A stretch of 64,000 nt of DNA, taken from positions 1,050,001 to 1,114,000 of the forward strand of contig NZ_CP129118.1 of NCBI RefSeq assembly GCF_033304615.1. The letters run 5' to 3'. The notes under the pieces were generated by a model that saw only the letters and a program-made list of their open reading frames with translations, was not told the origin of the DNA and searched no databases. A program made the translations under genes and the position numbers. Shown one piece after another: positions 5,223 to 60,944 of the stretch; within the stretch, counting starts at the first letter, position 1, and each line of letters opens with the position of its first letter. The DNA comes from Sporosarcina oncorhynchi. GTDB lineage: Bacteria; Bacillota; Bacilli; Bacillales_A; Planococcaceae.

Positions 5223-6023
5223 TTGATAAAGACAATCATTTTCGACTTAGATGACACACTTTTATGGGACAAGAAAAGCATTGCAACTGCATTTGAAAAT
5301 ACATGTAAGTATGCAGCTGAGCTCCTATATATTGATGCGTTTGAATTGGAGAATGCGGTACGAGAAGCGGCAAGAAAACTTTATGCTACATACGATACAT
5401 ATGAATTTACACAGAACATCGGTATTAACCCATTTGAAGGGTTATGGGGAATATTTGATGATGCAGAGGCTGCATTTGGACGAATGAAAGAAATCATTCC
5501 GCACTACCAGAAAGAAGCTTGGACAACCGGGCTGCAAAAAATGGGTATACATAATGCTGTAATTGGAGAAAAATTAGCTGCGATATTCATTGAAGAGCGA
5601 AAGATGAGCCCATTTGTCTATGAAGAAACATTTTCCGTACTGGACCAATTGAAAGGAAACTATACGCTCGTTTTACTGACAAATGGCGCTCCATCACTAC
5701 AAAACACAAAATTAGAAATCACACCTGAATTGAAACCGTATTTTGATGAAATAATTATTTCAGGTGCATTTGGAAAAGGAAAGCCTGATCCATCTATCTT
5801 TGAATATGTCATGAAGAAGACAGGTCATTCTGCGGGCGAGTCATTAATGATTGGTGATAACTTAATGACGGACATTTTGGGATCATCACGAGTTGGCATG
5901 CGTTCCGTGTGGATCAATCGCGAAAATCAACCGAAACGCGATGAAATTCAGGCGACATATGAGATCAATCATTTAGAAGAATTATTTCCGATTTTAGATC
6001 AACTTGGCCGTATCGAAATGTAG
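5223..6023 (+). CDS. HAD-superfamily hydrolase (YsaA-like)
   Basis: The 266-residue protein has all HAD motifs: the nucleophile motif FDLDDT (residues 7-12), LLTNGA (about 149-154), the lysine motif GKGKPDP (about 184-190) and the acidic motif IGDNLMTD (about 208-215). A helical cap domain lies between motifs I and II (C1 type). The substrate is unknown; B. subtilis YsaA is the closest relative I recognise. TTG start at 5223 is set by GGGGAG eight bases upstream. The last codons and the TAG stop are made by the first unit of the downstream repeat array, so the C-terminus GRIEM is repeat-encoded. Confidence 0.85.
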   Translation: MIKTIIFDLDDTLLWDKKSIATAFENTCKYAAELLYIDAFELENAVREAARKLYATYDTYEFTQNIGINPFEGLWGIFDDAEAAFGRMKEIIPHYQKEAWTTGLQKMGIHNAVIGEKLAAIFIEERKMSPFVYEETFSVLDQLKGNYTLVLLTNGAPSLQNTKLEITPELKPYFDEIIISGAFGKGKPDPSIFEYVMKKTGHSAGESLMIGDNLMTDILGSSRVGMRSVWINRENQPKRDEIQATYEINHLEELFPILDQLGRIEM

Positions 6024-6450
6024 AGTGCGCAACGAAACGTAACCGGCGCGTATCGAAACGTAGACAGCTCGTAACACAACGTATCTCCGTCGTATCGAAA
6101 TGTAGAGTGAGCAACGAAACGTAACCAGCGCGTATCGAAACGTAGACGGTTCGTAACACAACGTACCTCCGTCGTATCGAAATGTAGAGTGCGCAACGAA
6201 ACGTAACCGGCGCGTATCGAAACGTAGACGGCTCGTATCACAACGTACCTCCGTCGTATCGAAATGTAGAGTGCGCAACGAAACGTAACCGGCGCGTATC
6301 GAAACGTAGACGGTTCGTAACACAACGTACACCCGTCGTATCGAAATGTAGCAGGCGCAACGAAACGTAACCGGCGCGTATCGAAACGTAGGAGGCTCGT
6401 ATCACAACGTACCTTCGTCGTATCGAAATGTAGCAGGCGCAACGAAACAT
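6009..6450. repeat. Tandem array A1: CGAAACGTA-family repeats in an exact 82-bp higher-order unit
   Basis: About 22 copies of a 14-base core, CGTATCGAAACGTA or a variant (CGCAACGAAACGTA, CGTAACACAACGTA), separated by 5-7 variable bases. Four cores form an 82-bp unit that starts at 6009, 6091, 6173, 6255, 6337 and 6419, exactly 82 bp each time; the last copy is partial. The array fills the gap between the convergent HAD gene and serA. The minus strand has no stop codon in any frame of the core, which explains three overlapping false ORFs there. Confidence 0.95.
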
Positions 6451-6483
6451 TGTCAGCGCCACATTGCGCAAAAAACCTACAAA

Positions 6484-8067
6484 TTAAAGGTCAATTACAC
6501 GCACTTCATAAATATCCACAAGGTCAGTCAAATCGTTCGTCTCATTCTGTGCCACATGATTATCAATCGTCAACATCATGATTGCATTTCCGCCGACTTC
6601 GGAGCGACCGACTTGCATTGTTGCGATATTGATGTTTTTGGCTGCAAGCAATGTACCGACGCGTCCGATTGCACCGGGCTGATCTTTATGTTTAATGAAC
6701 AAGAGATGACCTTCAGGCACGACGTCGACTACATAGTCATCGACTTTAACGATGCGCGGGCCAAGGCCATTTAGCAATGTACCCGAGACGCGATGGCTAG
6801 CAACTGCAGTGCGCACTTCGACAGTCATGAGATTCAGGAACCCTTTAGTGGTAGTTGTTTTATGTTCTTCTACCTTGATTTCGAAACGTTCGGCAAGGAA
6901 TTTGGCATTTACATCATTGACATGATCTCCAAGATTTCGTTTCAGAATCCCTTTGACGGTATTACGTGTTAATGCCCTCACATCATAATCGGCAAGTTCT
7001 CCTGCGTAATGAATCGTCACACCGACGATTGTTTCATCCGTCAGACGCGACAGGAATGTACCAAGCTTCTCAGCAAGGTTCAAGAAGGGAGCAATTTTTG
7101 CAAGCACTTCCTTCGAAACAGAGGGAAGATTGACTGGATTTCGAACTGCTTCTCCATTGAAGAAATTCACGACATCCATACTGACGTCCACTGCGACGCT
7201 TTCCTGTGCCTCTTTCGTACTTGCCCCTAAATGTGGTGTTGCAATCACTTCAGGCAAGTCTAGCAAAGGATGACCGACAAATGGCTCCGTTTCAAAAACA
7301 TCGAGTGCAGCACCTGCAACTTTACCGGATACAATGGCATTATACAGGGCATCCTCGTCTATAATGCCTCCTCTTGCACAGTTTATAATCTGCACACCGT
7401 CTTTCATTTTTTCAAACGCTTCTTTATTCAATAAATGACGGGTCTCTTTTAATAACGGTGTGTGGACAGTTATAAAATCCGCCGCTTTTAACACGTCATC
7501 AATTGTACCAAAGCCGATGCCCATCTTTTTGGCCTTCTCTTCGGTTAGAAACGGATCATAGGCGATAACATTCATTCGCTGGCCTTTCGCGCGTGCGGTT
7601 ACTTCAGCCCCAATACGACCAAGGCCAATGACGCCGAGTGTCTTGTTTTTCAGTTCTACACCAATAAACGACTTTCGATCCCAATGTCCAATTTTCAACG
7701 AATTGAATGCTTGCGGAATTTTCCTTGCAAGTGCAGTCATCATCGCGATTGTATGCTCAGCTGCTGAATTTGTATTGCCATCTGGCGCATTGACGACGAT
7801 GATGCCATGTTCAGTGGCGGCCTCCAAATCGATATTATCGACACCAACACCAGCGCGTCCAATCATCTTTAATTGCATTGCTGCTTCAATCACTTCACGG
7901 GTAACTTGAGTCTGACTGCGTACGAGTATAGCGTCCACATCTTTTACGATTTCTAGTAACGCTTCATGCGATAATTCTGTAGCAAGGATAATTTCTAGAT
8001 TATCCGCTTGCCGTAGTGGCTGAATGCCTTCTTCACTAAGCGGGTCGCTCACAAGTATTTTAAACAT
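6484..8067 (-). CDS. serA: D-3-phosphoglycerate dehydrogenase
   Basis: First enzyme of serine synthesis: oxidises 3-phosphoglycerate to 3-phosphohydroxypyruvate with NAD. The 527 residues show the substrate domain, the Rossmann motif GVIGLGRIG (about 143-151), the catalytic Arg in NCARGGIIDE (about 229-238), the catalytic His in TPHLGAST (about 278-285), an intervening domain and a C-terminal ACT domain (LLFIKHKDQPGAIGRVG, from about 455) that usually senses serine. Length equals the Bacillus long form. The start overlaps the stop of the upstream aminotransferase by one base (TAATG), so the two are translationally coupled and share the T-box leader. Confidence 0.97.
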   Translation of the reverse strand: MFKILVSDPLSEEGIQPLRQADNLEIILATELSHEALLEIVKDVDAILVRSQTQVTREVIEAAMQLKMIGRAGVGVDNIDLEAATEHGIIVVNAPDGNTNSAAEHTIAMMTALARKIPQAFNSLKIGHWDRKSFIGVELKNKTLGVIGLGRIGAEVTARAKGQRMNVIAYDPFLTEEKAKKMGIGFGTIDDVLKAADFITVHTPLLKETRHLLNKEAFEKMKDGVQIINCARGGIIDEDALYNAIVSGKVAGAALDVFETEPFVGHPLLDLPEVIATPHLGASTKEAQESVAVDVSMDVVNFFNGEAVRNPVNLPSVSKEVLAKIAPFLNLAEKLGTFLSRLTDETIVGVTIHYAGELADYDVRALTRNTVKGILKRNLGDHVNDVNAKFLAERFEIKVEEHKTTTTKGFLNLMTVEVRTAVASHRVSGTLLNGLGPRIVKVDDYVVDVVPEGHLLFIKHKDQPGAIGRVGTLLAAKNINIATMQVGRSEVGGNAIMMLTIDNHVAQNETNDLTDLVDIYEVRVIDL

Positions 8068-9239: not shown

Positions 9240-9523
9240 CTGTGGATAAAAATAAAAAAGCCTTCCGTCCCTTGCAACTAGTGCAAGGGGCGAAAAGCTT
9301 TTAAGCTACGCGGTGCCACCCTAATTCGCCGTCATTAAAGACAGCCTTCATAAAATGCGTAACGGGCATGAAGCGGATCGGCCTACAAAAAACCATTGTT
9401 CAGCTGACCTATTCAGAAGTGCTGCGACAAATTGGAACCGCTGATTTGCACCATCCATCAGCTCTCTGCAGGCTTCCATATAAGACGCTTGTCTTCATCA
9501 ACATAGTTTCGGAAATTCAATTA
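9240..9523 (-). ncRNA. T-box leader (probably tRNA-Ser) of the aminotransferase-serA operon
   Basis: On the minus strand the invariant T-box AGGGTGGCACCGCG is present (9322 down to 9309), followed by a terminator hairpin and U-run at 9254-9302. Upstream is a stem I with the expected AG-bulge/GGTG loop region (complement of about 9440-9475). A UCU serine triplet at 9417-9415 lies where the specifier loop should be; this triplet is a guess from position. Uncharged tRNA would favour the antiterminator and allow transcription. The class is certain; serine specificity follows from the downstream genes. Confidence 0.92.
9254..9302 (-). terminator. T-box attenuator terminator
   Basis: CCTTGCA and TGCAAGG form the core of a long stem, extended by AAGC/GCTT and G-C pairs, with a run of six U residues on the minus-strand transcript just before the gene. 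Confidence 0.85.
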
Positions 9524-16022: not shown

Positions 16023-16069
16023 GTATACAATTCAGTTTTAAATGCTATACTAGTCACAATCGAATATTT

Positions 16070-16172
16070 CTTATCAAGAGAAGCAGAGGGAATTGGCCCG
16101 TTGACGCTTCAGCAACCTCTGCAATTGCAGGAAGGTGCTACCTCCAACAAGATGAAAGTCTTGAGAGATAAG
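16070..16172 (+). ncRNA. SAM-I (S-box) riboswitch
   Basis: All S-box landmarks are present: the P1 strands CTTATC and GATAAG, AGAGAAGCAGAGGGA, GGCCC, GACGCTTCAGCAACC and AAGGTGCTA. It precedes metA and is followed by a terminator hairpin, so binding of S-adenosylmethionine should stop transcription of metA. A TATACT -10 box lies at 16046-16051. Confidence 0.97.
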
Positions 16173-16186
16173 AGCGGAGAATTACT

Positions 16187-28370: not shown

Positions 28371-28537
28371 TGCTTTCCTCGGTTCAAAAAGCAGACCAAG
28401 ATTAATATGTCAAAAGCATTCTGCGCGACGGATTAACACTTACGTATTGGGGTCCCCCGCGGAACGATAAAGGTTTAACAGCTTTTTAGTTCAGTGAATG
28501 GACCTACTGAAATCATCGAATTAGCACACCTTCAAAA

Positions 28538-28706
28538 CCGCTCAACCTGGGTTCATAACCGCTCAACATCGATTCAAATCCGCTCAACCTCGGTTCAAAA
28601 CCGCTCAACCTGGTCTGAAATCCGCTCAACCTAGTCCAAAAACCGCTCAACCTCGGTTTAAATCCGCTCAACTGCAGTTCGAATCCGCTCAACCTTAGTC
28701 TGAAAA
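28538..28706. repeat. Array C: eight 21-bp CCGCTCAACC repeats
   Basis: Eight units of exactly 21 bp start at 28538, 28559, 28580, 28601, 28622, 28643, 28664 and 28685. Each begins CCGCTCAAC and ends in a looser CGGTTCAAA-type half. It lies between gdhA and argG, which run in the same direction. The minus strand yields a false 75-codon frame of heptads (LSGFEPR). Confidence 0.93.
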
Positions 28707-30146: not shown

Positions 30147-30164
30147 ATATGTTGAGCGATTACA

Positions 30165-30690
30165 GTTTTACGAGCGCCCGCCCGCAGTATACGGGCGCGG
30201 CAACAGTATTTATGGGCGCATGTCCGCAGTATACGAGCGCAGCAACAGTATTTATGGGCGCATGCCCGCAGTATACGGGCGCGGCAACAGTATTTATGGG
30301 CGCATGCCCACAGTATACGGGCGCGGCAACAGTATTTATGGGCGCATGCCCACAGTATACGGACGCGGCAACATTTTTTATGGGCGCATGCCCGCAGAAT
30401 ACGGGCGCAGCAACAGTATTTATGGGCGCATGTCCGCAGTATACGAGCGCAGCAACAGTATTTATGGGCGCATGTCCGCAGTATACGAGCGCAGCAACAG
30501 TATTTATGGGCGCATGCCCGCAGTATACAGGCGCAGCAACAGTATTTATGGGCGCATGTCCGCAGTATACGGGCGCGGCAACAGTATTTATGGGCTCATG
30601 CCCGCAGTATACGGGCGCGGCAACAGTATTTATGGGCGCATGTCCGCACTATACGGGCGCGGCATTAAGTTATACGAGCGCATCAATAGC
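30165..30690. repeat. Array B: 42-bp repeats with GGGCGC every 21 bp
   Basis: About twelve 42-bp units, each made of two related halves (CAGTATACGGGCGCGG and CAGTATTTATGGGCGC). The GRGCGC hexamer recurs every 21 bases from 30172 to 30676 (25 positions). Because 42 is a multiple of three, plus-strand frames stay open and show 14-residue periodic peptides (ACPQYTGAATVFMG and MPAVYGRGNSIYGR). One of these frames is continuous with the downstream DUF218 gene. Confidence 0.95.
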
Positions 30691-39545: not shown

Positions 39546-40616
39546 ATGAAAAAATCAATTTACGGATTGACGTTGGAACAACTGACAGCGTGGTTACTAG
39601 ACAATGGACAAAAGAAATTCCGTGCTAAGCAAGTATGGGATTGGTTATATAAAAAGCGTGTCAGCAATTTTGCAGACATGACGAATATCAATAAAGAGTG
39701 TCTTGATTTGTTGGATGAGCATTTTGCAATCCAGACATTGGAAAAAAGCGTTAAACAAGTTTCAGACGACGGGACGATTAAGTTCCTGTTCAAAATGCAG
39801 GACGGCAACCTGATTGAGACGGTACTGATGAAATTTCCTTACGGTCAATCAGTATGTGTTACGACACAAGTCGGCTGCAATATCGGCTGCAGTTTCTGTG
39901 CGAGTGGTTTATTGAAAAAGAACCGGGATTTAGATGCTGGGGAAATTGTCGGTCAAATCATGATGGTGCAAGAACATCTCGATCAATTAGGAGAAGAGGA
40001 ACGTGTCAGTCATATCGTCGTCATGGGTATCGGGGAACCGTTTGATAACTATACGAACTTGATGAACTTCCTTCGCGTCGTAAACGATCAGGATGGATTG
40101 TCTATCGGTGCTCGTCATATCACAGTTTCTACGAGCGGATTGACACCGAAAATCCGTGATTTCGCGGAAGAAAATATACAAATCAACTTGGCGGTATCGC
40201 TGCATGCGCCAAACAATGATTTGCGTACGCGCATTATGAAAATTAACAAAGCGTATCCGATTGAAAAACTGATGGATGCGATTGATTATTATTTGGAAAC
40301 GACAAATCGTCGAATTACATTTGAATATATCCTTTTGAATGATGTGAACGATCATGTGACAGAAGCCGAGCAGTTAGCGAAACTTCTTTACAATAAGCGC
40401 CATCTTTCATACGTCAACCTGATTCCATACAATCCGGTTGATGAACACGGTCAATACCAGCGAAGCAATCCACAGGCGATTAAAGCGTTTTATGAAACAT
40501 TAAAAAAACGGGGCATCAATTGTGGCGTACGTCTAGAACATGGTACCGATATCGATGCTGCATGCGGACAGTTGCGCAGTAAGCAAATTAAGAAAGATAA
40601 AGAAAAAGTACGGTAA
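39546..40616 (+). CDS. rlmN: 23S rRNA (adenine2503-C2)-methyltransferase RlmN
   Basis: Radical-SAM enzyme that methylates A2503 of 23S rRNA and A37 of some tRNAs. The 356 residues contain the cluster motif [10 protein letters not shown] near residue 113, GEPFDNY near 164, the [16 protein letters not shown] segment, and the methyl-carrying Cys in [13 protein letters not shown] near the C-terminus. It does not have the cfr sequence pattern in the N-terminal region. RBS AGAGGTGAGG. Confidence 0.96.
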
Positions 40617-40662: not shown

Positions 40663-40671
40663 TTTAGGGGT

Positions 40672-41264
40672 CGCAACGAAAAGTAAACGCTCCGTAACGA
40701 AACGTAGCGCTGTCGCAACGAAAAGTAAACGCTCCGTATCGAAACGTAACGCTGTCGCAACGAAACATAACTCGCTCTTATCGAAACGTAAGCGGAGCAA
40801 CGAAAAGTAAACGCTCCGTAACGAAACGTAGCGCTGTCGCAACGAAACATAACTCGCTCGTATCGAAACGTAAGCGGAGCAACGAAAAGTAAACGCTCCG
40901 TAACGAAACGTAACGGGGTCGCAACGAAACGTACCTCGCTCGTATCGAAACGTAAGCGGAGCAACGAAACGTAAACGCTCCGTAACGAAACGTAACGCTG
41001 TCGCAACGAAACATAACTCGCTCGTATCGAAACGTAAGCGGAGCAACGAAACGTAAACGCTCCGTAACGAAACGTAACGCTGTCGCAACGAAACATAACT
41101 CGCTCGTATCGAAACGTAAGCGGAGCAACGAAACGTAAACGCTCCGTAACGAAACGTATCGCTGTCGCAACGAAACATAACTCGCTCGTATCGAAACGTA
41201 AGCAGAGCAACGAAAAGTAAACCCTCCGTATCGAAACGTAACGCTGTCGCAACAAAACATAGCT
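40672..41264. repeat. Tandem array A2: CGAAACGTA-family repeats, 82-bp higher-order unit
   Basis: About 29 cores of the family seen at 6 kb. The CGTATCGAAACGTAAGCGGA subunit recurs at 40777, 40859, 40941, 41023, 41105 and 41187, exactly 82 bp apart. Subunits are 20, 20, 21 and 21 bp. It lies between rlmN and a convergent membrane-protein gene. The spacers (CGCTCC, CGCTGT, TCGCT) differ from array A1, so the two arrays have homogenised separately. Long stop-free minus-strand frames (up to 268 codons) are artefacts. Confidence 0.95.
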
Positions 41265-41351
41265 CGCAAGCAAGTAGCCTACCCGAATCTTCTCAATAAA
41301 AAATACGTAGCACAGCAACAGGTAAATGTCGCCGTACAACGTATTTTCACG

Positions 41352-41735
41352 TCAAGCGTTATTATCTTCCTTCATTTTCTTGAAAATCATCACAATAAAT
41401 TCCACGATGACTGCTACACCAAAACCGAACGATGAAATCATGAACAAGGAGAGGACCCCTACAAGGTCGCCAAATCCGTCTGTATTCATAAGGAAGCTTC
41501 TGAAAAATTCAGCGAATGCCAAAACAAGGGCTACCATGAAAATTCGATAGGCGATTTTCATTTTATAGAAAAGCATGACGGCCGCTATAATGCCGACTGT
41601 TAAACTGAATACGCCAAAAGCTAAATAGTTTTTGAAAACCAATTCCGTTCCAAGTATTGTCCGAGTTCCTAAAATCATTAGGACGAATGATGTGAGTCCT
41701 GTGAAAAATCCGATTTTCCATAACTTTTTATCCAT
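41352..41735 (-). CDS. Four-helix membrane protein, unknown
   Basis: The 127 residues (MDKKLWKIGFFTGLTSFVLMI...) have four hydrophobic segments and a short charged C-terminus (KKMKEDNNA). I recognise no family. ATG 41735 is preferred to GTG 41744 because GCAGGTG lies seven bases before it. Single gene, convergent with rlmN across array A2. Confidence 0.65.
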   Translation of the reverse strand: MDKKLWKIGFFTGLTSFVLMILGTRTILGTELVFKNYLAFGVFSLTVGIIAAVMLFYKMKIAYRIFMVALVLAFAEFFRSFLMNTDGFGDLVGVLSLFMISSFGFGVAVIVEFIVMIFKKMKEDNNA

Positions 41736-41809
41736 AAACCGCACCTGCTTTCAGTACATATCATACTAGAAATTTCAGTGCTTGTGTTAAAAGTCGTATG
41801 AGTCACAAT

Positions 41810-59418: not shown

Positions 59419-59886
59419 ATGGGGTATATAGAAGATTTACGTGGAATTGTTGGGGACACGCCGCTTCTTTTAACAGGTGTGGGGGTTGGCATTTTCAATG
59501 AACAGGGAGAAATTCTTCTGCAGAAAAAACTCGATGGACGTTGGGGGATTCCAGGAGGATTTATGGAACTTGGTGAGTCCACTGAACAAGCGGGCAGAAG
59601 AGAAGTACTTGAAGAAACCGGATTAGAAATTGGTGAAATGCAACTTGTAACTGTCGTATCAGGTGCTCATACACATACAGTATTGAAAAATGGCCATGAA
59701 TATTATTCGGTGACGATTGTCTATGTCAGCAATGATATTCGCGGCGGTGAGCTAAAAGCAGATGGCATAGAAACGACTGAAGTCGAGTTTTATAAATTGA
59801 ATGAGTTGCCTGAAAACCTGAATCCGATGATCCGGGCAATGATTCTAGAGTATGCAACTGCGCAACGAAATGTAGAATCGGCGTAA
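59419..59886 (+). CDS. Nudix hydrolase, ADP-ribose pyrophosphatase-like
   Basis: The 155 residues have an N-terminal helix (YIEDLRGIVGDTPLLLTG) and a Nudix box GGFMELGESTEQAGRREVLEETGL (about 53-76) with all catalytic residues. Its C-terminal AQRNVESA is encoded by the first unit of array A3 (CGCAACGAAATGTA at 59861), so the array has reached into the coding end, as at the 6-kb HAD gene. Confidence 0.9.
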   Translation: MGYIEDLRGIVGDTPLLLTGVGVGIFNEQGEILLQKKLDGRWGIPGGFMELGESTEQAGRREVLEETGLEIGEMQLVTVVSGAHTHTVLKNGHEYYSVTIVYVSNDIRGGELKADGIETTEVEFYKLNELPENLNPMIRAMILEYATAQRNVESA

Positions 59887-60440
59887 TTACTATAGGTTTG
59901 GTGCAACGAGAAGTATTTGTGTTGTATCGAAACGTAACTGCGTCGCAACGAAACGTAACCCGTGTATCGAAACGTAACGCGCTCGCAACGAAACGTAACT
60001 GCGTCGTATCGAAACGTAACCCGCTCGTAACGAAACATAACCGCGTCGTATCGAAACGTACGTAACGCGTGTATCGAAATGTAACGCGCTCGCAACGAAA
60101 CGTAACCGCGTCGTATCGAAACGTAACGCGCTCGTAACGAAACATAACTGCGTCGTATCGAAACGTAACGCGCTCGTAACGAAACATAACTGTGTCGTAT
60201 CGAAACGTAACCCACTTGCAACGAAACGTATCTGTGTCGTATCGAAACGTAACGCGCTCGCAACGAAACGTAACCGCGTCGTATCGAAACGTAACGCGCT
60301 CGTAACGAAACATAACCGCGTCGTATCGAAACGTAACGCGTTCGTAACGAAACATAACTGCGTCGTATCGAAACGTATCTGCGTCGTATCGAAATGTAAC
60401 GCGCTCGCAACGAAACATAACTGCATCGCAACGAAATGTA
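59861..60440. repeat. Tandem array A3: CGAAACGTA-family repeats, mostly 42-bp unit
   Basis: About 27 cores alternating CGTATCGAAACGTA and CGTAACGAAACATA with GCGCT/GCGTC spacers, at exact 21-bp steps over long runs (60005, 60026, 60047; 60133, 60154, 60175). The unit here is mostly 42 bp instead of the 82 bp of arrays A1 and A2. The array lies between the Nudix gene and a convergent gene at 60498. Minus-strand frames of up to 230 codons are artefacts. Confidence 0.95.
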
Positions 60441-60497: not shown

Positions 60498-60944
60498 TCA
60501 AAATGATCGATTGCTAACGAAAAACTTCACAATCCAGTTTACGTCTAGCGGACCATCGACGACTTCATAATACAAATTTTCATTTTGGATAATAATATTT
60601 TCTTCAATCATGACTGTGATTTTATTGCCATCGTCATCAATCAACTCAATGCTAAGCACATCAATTTCATCTTTCGAATCAATCTCAGAAGCGTTGAGCT
60701 TTTTTATAGAATAGTTTTGAAGAAAATCTATCAGCTGATTTACTTCGTGTTCATCATCAACCACCCATGTTTCAGCAGGAGAGTCTTGTGTTGTCGGCTT
60801 GGTGAAAATGAGCGAATTGAAATCATTGCCAATCGTGTTGAACAGATCAGAGAAACTTTTTTCGTTGGTCTCATTATACGTCTGGAGCATTACGTAAGTT
60901 CCGCCGATTAGAAGGGCAATCAGCAATAGGGCTCTTATTTTCAT
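60498..60944 (-). CDS. Membrane-anchored hypothetical protein
   Basis: The 148 residues begin with a signal anchor (MKIRALLLIALLIGGTYVML) followed by an extracytoplasmic alpha/beta domain with IELIDDDGNKITVMIEENI. ATG with AGGAGGAT upstream. Family not known. Confidence 0.65.
   Translation of the reverse strand: MKIRALLLIALLIGGTYVMLQTYNETNEKSFSDLFNTIGNDFNSLIFTKPTTQDSPAETWVVDDEHEVNQLIDFLQNYSIKKLNASEIDSKDEIDVLSIELIDDDGNKITVMIEENIIIQNENLYYEVVDGPLDVNWIVKFFVSNRSF

Follow-up and report, generated by a model that had tools for sequence, protein, structure and literature searches.

Plasmid iteron and centromere-like arrays are built from head-to-tail sites about two helical turns apart that are cooperatively bound, and they sit at an origin or a centromere beside the gene of their protein. 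CRISPR arrays, in turn, combine conserved repeats with variable spacers. The arrays described here come from Sporosarcina oncorhynchi, where they were noticed in a stretch of 64,000 nucleotides (contig NZ_CP129118.1, positions 1,050,001 to 1,114,000; hereafter the window). They resemble iteron and centromere-like arrays in their head-to-tail, near-two-turn sites, although here 23 arrays are dispersed over the chromosome, and they differ from CRISPR arrays in that the core has 14 bp, the spacers have 5-7 bp and the spacers are common to the units of an array. The class to which they belong is that of the noncoding bacterial satellites of 20-21 nt which, like those of 52 nt, are of constant size and variable, species-specific sequence (Subirana and Messeguer, PMC8161180, PMC6749651, PMC8625621). 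Constraint on size, protein polymerisation on DNA or transcription have been suggested for these satellites by the same authors (PMC8161180).

Satellites of this kind comprise at least four tandem repeats of 20-21 nt, at least 60% of them of equal length within 1 nt. In the S. oncorhynchi genome, a single contig of 3.48 Mb, the CGTATCGAAACGTA core (family 1) forms 23 arrays with 587 cores, on both strands; 433 of the 564 core-to-core steps measure 21 bp, and a further 122 measure 19 bp and fall outside the 1-nt tolerance. The arrays are noncoding (82 is not a multiple of three, Pfam gave no match for the one ORF tried across each of the window's three arrays, and the arrays sit between ORFs, the ends of which are touched in two window cases). 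Their sequence is restricted to few related species: among 261 genomes of the taxonomic family, two contain the exact two-core pattern, the S. oncorhynchi genome itself and a congeneric one, G187, which is probably of the same species as Sporosarcina quadrami. Three families with steps near 21 bp occur in the genome. In all these features, as in the short conserved sequence within each repeat, the arrays are like the 20-21-nt satellites as they are presented in the main text of Subirana and Messeguer (2021, PMC8161180). They are unlike them in the four-core, 82-bp order created by a 19-bp fourth step, in the recurrence of this order with an unrelated core and in their scarcity near the terminus. 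That main text nowhere uses the terms '82 nt', 'higher-order', 'terminus' or 'Sporosarcina', and neither the 82-bp order nor terminus avoidance was found in the literature searched, the 2020 J Bacteriol paper cited by PMC8161180 being outside it.

The repeat unit in the window and in the genome

The repeat consists of a 14-letter core placed at fixed steps of 21, 21, 21 and 19, so that the pattern returns every 82 letters. Three arrays of this family, A1 to A3, lie in the window (Table 1). In A1, the steps 19-21-21-21 repeat faultlessly, TRF reports a period of 82 with 5.4 copies and 93% matches (6009-6448), and the upstream reading frame, with its stop at 6021-6023, runs into the first core. 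In A2, the plain 21-bp steps at the start precede the 82-bp units, and for the array TRF again reports a period of 82 (7.3 copies, 93% matches, 40670-41267). At core positions the unit consensuses of A1 and A2 agree by 87.5%, at spacer positions by 34.6%. The window also holds two arrays whose cores are unrelated to CGTATCGAAACGTA and whose periods are 21/42 bp; the gene between them is presumably argininosuccinate synthase-like.

Table 1. Arrays, neighbouring genes and other annotated elements of the window
Feature	Position	Strand	Description
Array A1	6009..6451	+	22 cores; five consecutive 82-bp units (6009, 6091, 6173, 6255, 6337) and a partial sixth (core start 6419)
Array A2	40672..41261	+	29 cores; five 21-bp steps, then five consecutive 82-bp units from 40777; unit starts 40777, 40859, 40941, 41023, 41105, 41187
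Array A3	59861..60440	+	Family of the CGTATCGAAACGTA core; period of 42 bp with a single 19-bp step; departs from the 82-bp rule
HAD-type hydrolase gene, left of A1	5223..6023	+	Pfam PF00702/PF13419
D-3-phosphoglycerate dehydrogenase-like gene, right of A1, convergent	6484..8067	-	Pfam PF02826, PF00389, PF19304, ACT
RlmN-like rRNA methyltransferase gene, left of A2	39546..40616	+	Pfam PF21016, PF04055
Reading frame right of A2, convergent	41352..41744	-	No Pfam match
NUDIX hydrolase gene, left of A3	59419..59886	+	Pfam PF00293
Reading frame right of A3, convergent	60498..60944	-	No Pfam match; relative in 68/68 genomes of the genus
Array of another core family (CCGCTCAACC)	28531..28695	+	21-bp steps; TRF; many further places in the genome
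Array of a further core family (GGGCGCATGCCCGC... / GGGCGCATGCCC)	30162..30664	+	42-bp unit; TRF; many further places in the genome
T-box leader	9283..9510	-	Rfam
SAM riboswitch	16068..16174	+	Rfam

The arrays of family 1 were found by a search with A3, in which all 24 candidates were scored, together with a core profile. Beyond the 555 steps of exactly 21 or 19 bp, there are five of 22 or 23 bp and four longer gaps, and not one of 20 bp; the count takes in two stray cores, one ahead of the 292-kb array and one leading A3, which are omitted from the lag analysis. The strongest lag is 82 in 20 of the 23 arrays, the exceptions being A3 (42), one array with 21 and 61, and one array of four cores, while the full 19-21-21-21 unit is present in 22 of the 23. 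In 79 of 100 intervals between successive 19-bp steps, the number of 21-bp steps is exactly three, a share that would be about 10% if the steps were placed independently. Whole cores are gained and lost, which leaves intervals of 61, 103 and 124 bp. The 82-bp unit is therefore real and extends beyond A1 and A2. The first-pass annotation, made on the window, had given the unit starts of A1 and A2 correctly throughout; its statement that the units of both arrays measure exactly 82 bp in spite of different spacers agrees with the TRF periods and the consensus comparison, and its dismissal of coding stands. It had also held that many different periods, with no preference for 82 bp, would speak against the unit, and the lags show that preference. 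All 193 exact copies of CGTATCGAAACGTA in the genome lie inside arrays, so that the core belongs to the arrays rather than being an operator scattered over the genome, and the core profile found no opposite-strand cluster of three or more cores in any of the 23 arrays.

According to a simple ORF picker, seven arrays lie between convergent genes, three between divergent genes and 12 between genes of the same direction, with which the array is co-directed in four cases and opposed in eight; one case is unclear. No rule linking array strand to neighbouring genes was seen among the 23 arrays, and this counts against the reading that the arrays act as transcripts, structured or sponge-like. Transcription is reported for 52-nt satellites of Bacillus coagulans by Subirana and Messeguer (PMC8161180, PMC8625621), and the interior of A2 carries, on the minus strand, ten terminator-like hairpins (11 in the stretch, against a mean of 3.0 in shuffles). 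However, such sites are absent from A3 and from the inside of A1, and a terminator role was set aside as no trait of the family. A stem screen over 22 array consensuses gave a best z of 3.2 and a pairing of 0.72 against 0.69 in permuted sequences, a small effect; the folds of A1 and A2 are unremarkable (z +1.87, -0.21 and -1.30), and Rfam, run over the window, has no match inside the arrays. RNA hairpins with the cores in their loops, to which some A2 spacers, apparently complementary by eye, had pointed, were rejected on the small stem-screen effect and the ordinary folds. With no conserved or covarying secondary structure found in the stem screen, the folds or Rfam, an action as transcripts is highly unlikely.

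Conserved cores, free spacers and fixed lengths

Between arrays, the consensuses differ at 12.7% of core positions and 55.7% of spacer positions; within arrays, the corresponding differences are 4.1% and 18.9% (13 arrays with at least four units). Several core columns are invariant across 22 array consensuses, whereas the spacers vary freely. A yardstick for length change is provided by the noncoding flanks, which, compared with S. quadrami, show 1,425 substitutions and 89 indels in 8,002 aligned bases, or 0.062 indels per substitution. At this ratio, spacers that have changed at half their positions would often be expected to change in length as well, yet their lengths hardly vary. Unit statistics are based on exact 19-21-21-21 units (96 from S. 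oncorhynchi, 44 from S. quadrami and 80 from family 2, described below) and step counts on all steps; the units compared were thus picked for their exact pattern, but the count of all steps agrees.

The units have been homogenised by locus, as the first-pass annotation had proposed: mean unit identity is 0.907 within and 0.724 between arrays, and for 87 of 93 units the nearest unit belongs to the same array. Cores that occupy the same slot of the unit are also more alike between arrays than cores of other slots (0.873 against 0.846, a difference reached in 0 of 200 permutations; here and in the position tests, the loci were taken from search lists and clustered by us). This similarity points to a descent of family 1, probably from one four-core unit. 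The annotation had left two options, that the length itself matters or that the arrays descend from one 82-bp seed. The seed gains support from the same-slot similarity, and the length from the fixed extent of spacers whose letters vary and from an unrelated core with the same order. Some findings speak against length as a general rule: A3 has 42 bp, two other families of the genome have 21/42 bp in the arrays read, and the second family of one relative has 61 bp.

The main rival to a functional reading is a selfish or neutral satellite, in which copies of a four-core, 82-bp seed reached many intergenic sites and have grown there in whole units by unequal exchange or slippage, its length being kept without function. 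This would account for the length shared by the arrays of family 1, and the locus-by-locus homogenisation, the same-slot similarity of cores, the gains and losses of whole cores and the existence of A3 with its 42 bp all agree with it. It leaves unexplained why cores persist while spacers change, both within and between arrays, and why the identical 21-21-21-19 order occurs with the unrelated core AACTGTCATGGCAA; the near absence of 1-bp length changes, with zero 20-bp steps, also speaks against it. A satellite of this sort is a real possibility, to which we give clearly less than even weight.

Relatives, other core families and position in the chromosome

A three-core scan of a collection of species genomes returned 28 stretches, 21 of them from S. 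quadrami. Of 316 steps at the S. quadrami loci, 311 measure 21 or 19 bp, and the full unit is present in 21 of 23 sampled arrays, although the best lag is 82 in just 13 of 21 arrays of 150 bp or more; these arrays were found by the three-core pattern, and several are clipped by contig or locus ends. The conserved cores, the quantisation of steps at 19 and 21 bp, the 82-bp unit in most arrays and the presence of this unit in two species are observations. The flanks of 17 of the 23 S. oncorhynchi loci match S. quadrami array loci over 0.9-5.9 kb with 79-87% identity; of the other six, two match over merely 62 and 187 bases and four are without a match. Some loci match on a single flank, which for A2 is the right one, and the match of the 764-kb locus lies at the far end of its neighbour's locus, not at an array. 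At loci set as shared (19 array pairs), identity is 50.4% for spacers and 89.1% for cores; the 443 other pairs give 42.5% and 87.6%. The spacer letters have thus been almost completely replaced, and the unit has persisted. The A3 locus has an 82-bp period in G187, against 42 in S. oncorhynchi, and TRF detected no array scoring at least 90 at the G187 RlmN locus.

Candidate relatives outside the genus were rejected: seven contigs, from Prevotella, Lachnospiraceae and Bacteroidetes, carry repeats that differ in sequence around CGAAACGTA, and since the three-core pattern itself demands a 19-21-bp step, these matches are taken as convergent or due to chance. One contig of an uncultured Bacteroidetes (L110, 3500-3705) carries a 21-bp array of about ten units with CGAAACGTA-like cores in an otherwise different sequence, and contigs of an uncultured Prevotella MAG (L117, L122-L124, L135) carry short dispersed 21-bp repeats with inverted ends and CGAAACGTA-like cores. 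A plasmid or phage origin was likewise set aside, as A2 has no match in the plasmid and phage collections; seven viral contigs match the two-core pattern, with one match each and an otherwise different sequence.

At the end of the RlmN gene, the place occupied by A2 in S. oncorhynchi, the relative G216 has an array of the unrelated core AACTGTCATGGCAA, again with an 82-bp period. This second family was found in 9 of 68 congeneric genomes; in 30 of its arrays, 592 of 618 steps are 21 or 19 bp, with 11 of 20 bp and four of 18 bp, and three 21-bp steps separate the 19-bp steps in 64 of 119 intervals, against about 10% expected. Its best lag is 82 in 19, 61 in four and 81 in one of the 24 arrays of 220 bp or more. 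In G175, family 2 has passed from 82 to 61 bp, that is, to three cores, in 32 of the 35 intervals at loci L204, L213, L222 and L231. The flanks of 3 of the 23 family-1 loci match a family-2 site of another species, among the 30 family-2 loci compared: the A2 flank has such counterparts in G216 and G190, the 408-kb locus in G175 and G223, and the 3,085-kb locus, more weakly, in G218. A AACCGATCATAACC family, present in 17 of the 68 genomes of the genus, has steps of 20 and 21 bp (28 arrays) and a period of 40-42 in most arrays. For both the AACTGTCATGGCAA and AACCGATCATAACC families the lists are partial, at most nine candidates per genome being scored and 30 loci of each used, and the same holds for the other families of S. 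oncorhynchi, with 40 of 64 candidates scored. G184 carries an 82-bp family and a 40/41-bp family side by side. The 82-bp order thus accompanies two core families that are unrelated to each other, and not all arrays of a genome need follow it.

These families also bear on the idea that the mean pitch counts, rather than 82 itself, in that about 20.5 bp per site are reached either by 21-21-21-19 or by 21-20, as in DNA wound on a protein filament. When only the commonest steps are considered, the mean steps of families 1, 2 and 3 are indeed 20.56, 20.50 and 20.61 bp, but family 3 has steps of 20 bp throughout in some arrays and of 21 bp throughout in others, and in the CCGCTCAACC family 77 of 87 steps are at 21. 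The agreement of the pooled means may be an accident, and a rule of mean pitch appears very improbable. Two more repeats were noted in the S. oncorhynchi genome: a 52-bp repeat array with a 104-bp higher period (L292, about 2,807,288-2,807,709), which has the other length class of Subirana and Messeguer, and a further core family with 20-bp inner repeats (CAAAAGTCCAAACC) and a 150-bp higher period (L277, about 505,805-506,709).

From the perspective of the chromosome, dnaA lies at 3,479,655, and the sign of the GC skew switches from the sample at 1.65 Mb to that at 1.70 Mb. The three S. oncorhynchi families with steps near 21 bp comprise 23, 32 and 12 loci as clustered by us, and 3 of these 67 loci, from partial lists, fall in the quarter nearest the terminus (P 8.7e-6); when loci less than 10 kb apart are merged, the figure is 3 of 50 (P 0.0005). 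In the same partial lists, an empty stretch of 801 kb extends from 1,331,705 to 2,133,067 (simulated P 5e-5). Among the matches listed for the exact three-core CCGCTCAACC pattern, none lies between 1,177,513 and 2,133,067, and in twelve 10-kb samples taken between 1.3 and 2.1 Mb, TRF found no array of such a kind of at least 100 bp. Family 1 by itself provides weak evidence (1 of 23 in the terminus quarter, P 0.012; KS P 0.1). In eight one-contig relatives in which dnaA was placed, 0 of 44 loci fall in the terminus quarter (P 3e-6; partial lists, rounded genome sizes). The few arrays in the terminus quarter are an observation, as are the intergenic position and the 82-bp order with an unrelated core; the scarcity near the replication terminus may have other causes, such as the gene content of that region.

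A putative head-to-tail assembly

Conserved sites, free spacer letters, fixed near-two-turn lengths and one orientation per array are what a cooperative head-to-tail protein would select. Each 14-bp core would accordingly be read as one site for a putative DNA-binding protein of this type, which probably organises the nucleoid. Sites 21 bp apart, that is, two turns, would lie on the same face of the helix, and every fourth step, with 19 bp, would leave the next block turned by two base pairs of twist. Four in-phase sites followed by a step 2 bp shorter suggest that assembly proceeds in four-site blocks separated by joints, which would give the 82 bp. Spacer lengths would be constrained while their letters are free, and the family would have spread from a four-core ancestor and been homogenised locus by locus. 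The protein, its assembly four sites at a time and any nucleoid function are what we infer from the arrays. A motif and a spacing that persist, with drifting letters in between, suggest that the arrays serve as a landing strip for such a protein, and the arrays bear the marks of an iteron-like platform (fixed spacing, conserved sites and free spacer letters).

Several observations count against such a platform. The copying of whole units keeps a length without selection, and the same-slot similarity indicates common descent. The unit is also not universal, as illustrated by A3 with its 42 bp, the array with 21/61, the relative with 61 bp and the 20/21 and 21/42 families; finally, the S. quadrami lags are divided and the terminus avoidance of family 1 is weak. 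With these points weighed, the arrays as head-to-tail sites for a putative cooperative DNA-binding protein, arranged in blocks of four and probably nucleoid-organising, are a reading that we hold with evenly balanced confidence. A bolder version, which we consider unlikely, is that a fast-turning satellite and a co-evolving DNA-binding protein form chromatin-like, four-site particles of 82 bp, by which the chromosome beyond the terminus domain is organised, the core being replaced even at the same locus while the 82-bp frame is kept. If true, this would be a bacterial counterpart of centromeric satellites with a fixed unit length.

Bacterial satellites of constant length and variable sequence have so far been reported without an explanation of their length. 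The Sporosarcina arrays provide a sharp, testable rule: cores follow one another at 21 or 19 bp and hardly ever at 20 bp, and in other species the 21-21-21-19 order is found again with an unrelated core. This step rule and the small number of arrays near the terminus jointly point to a DNA-bound assembly.
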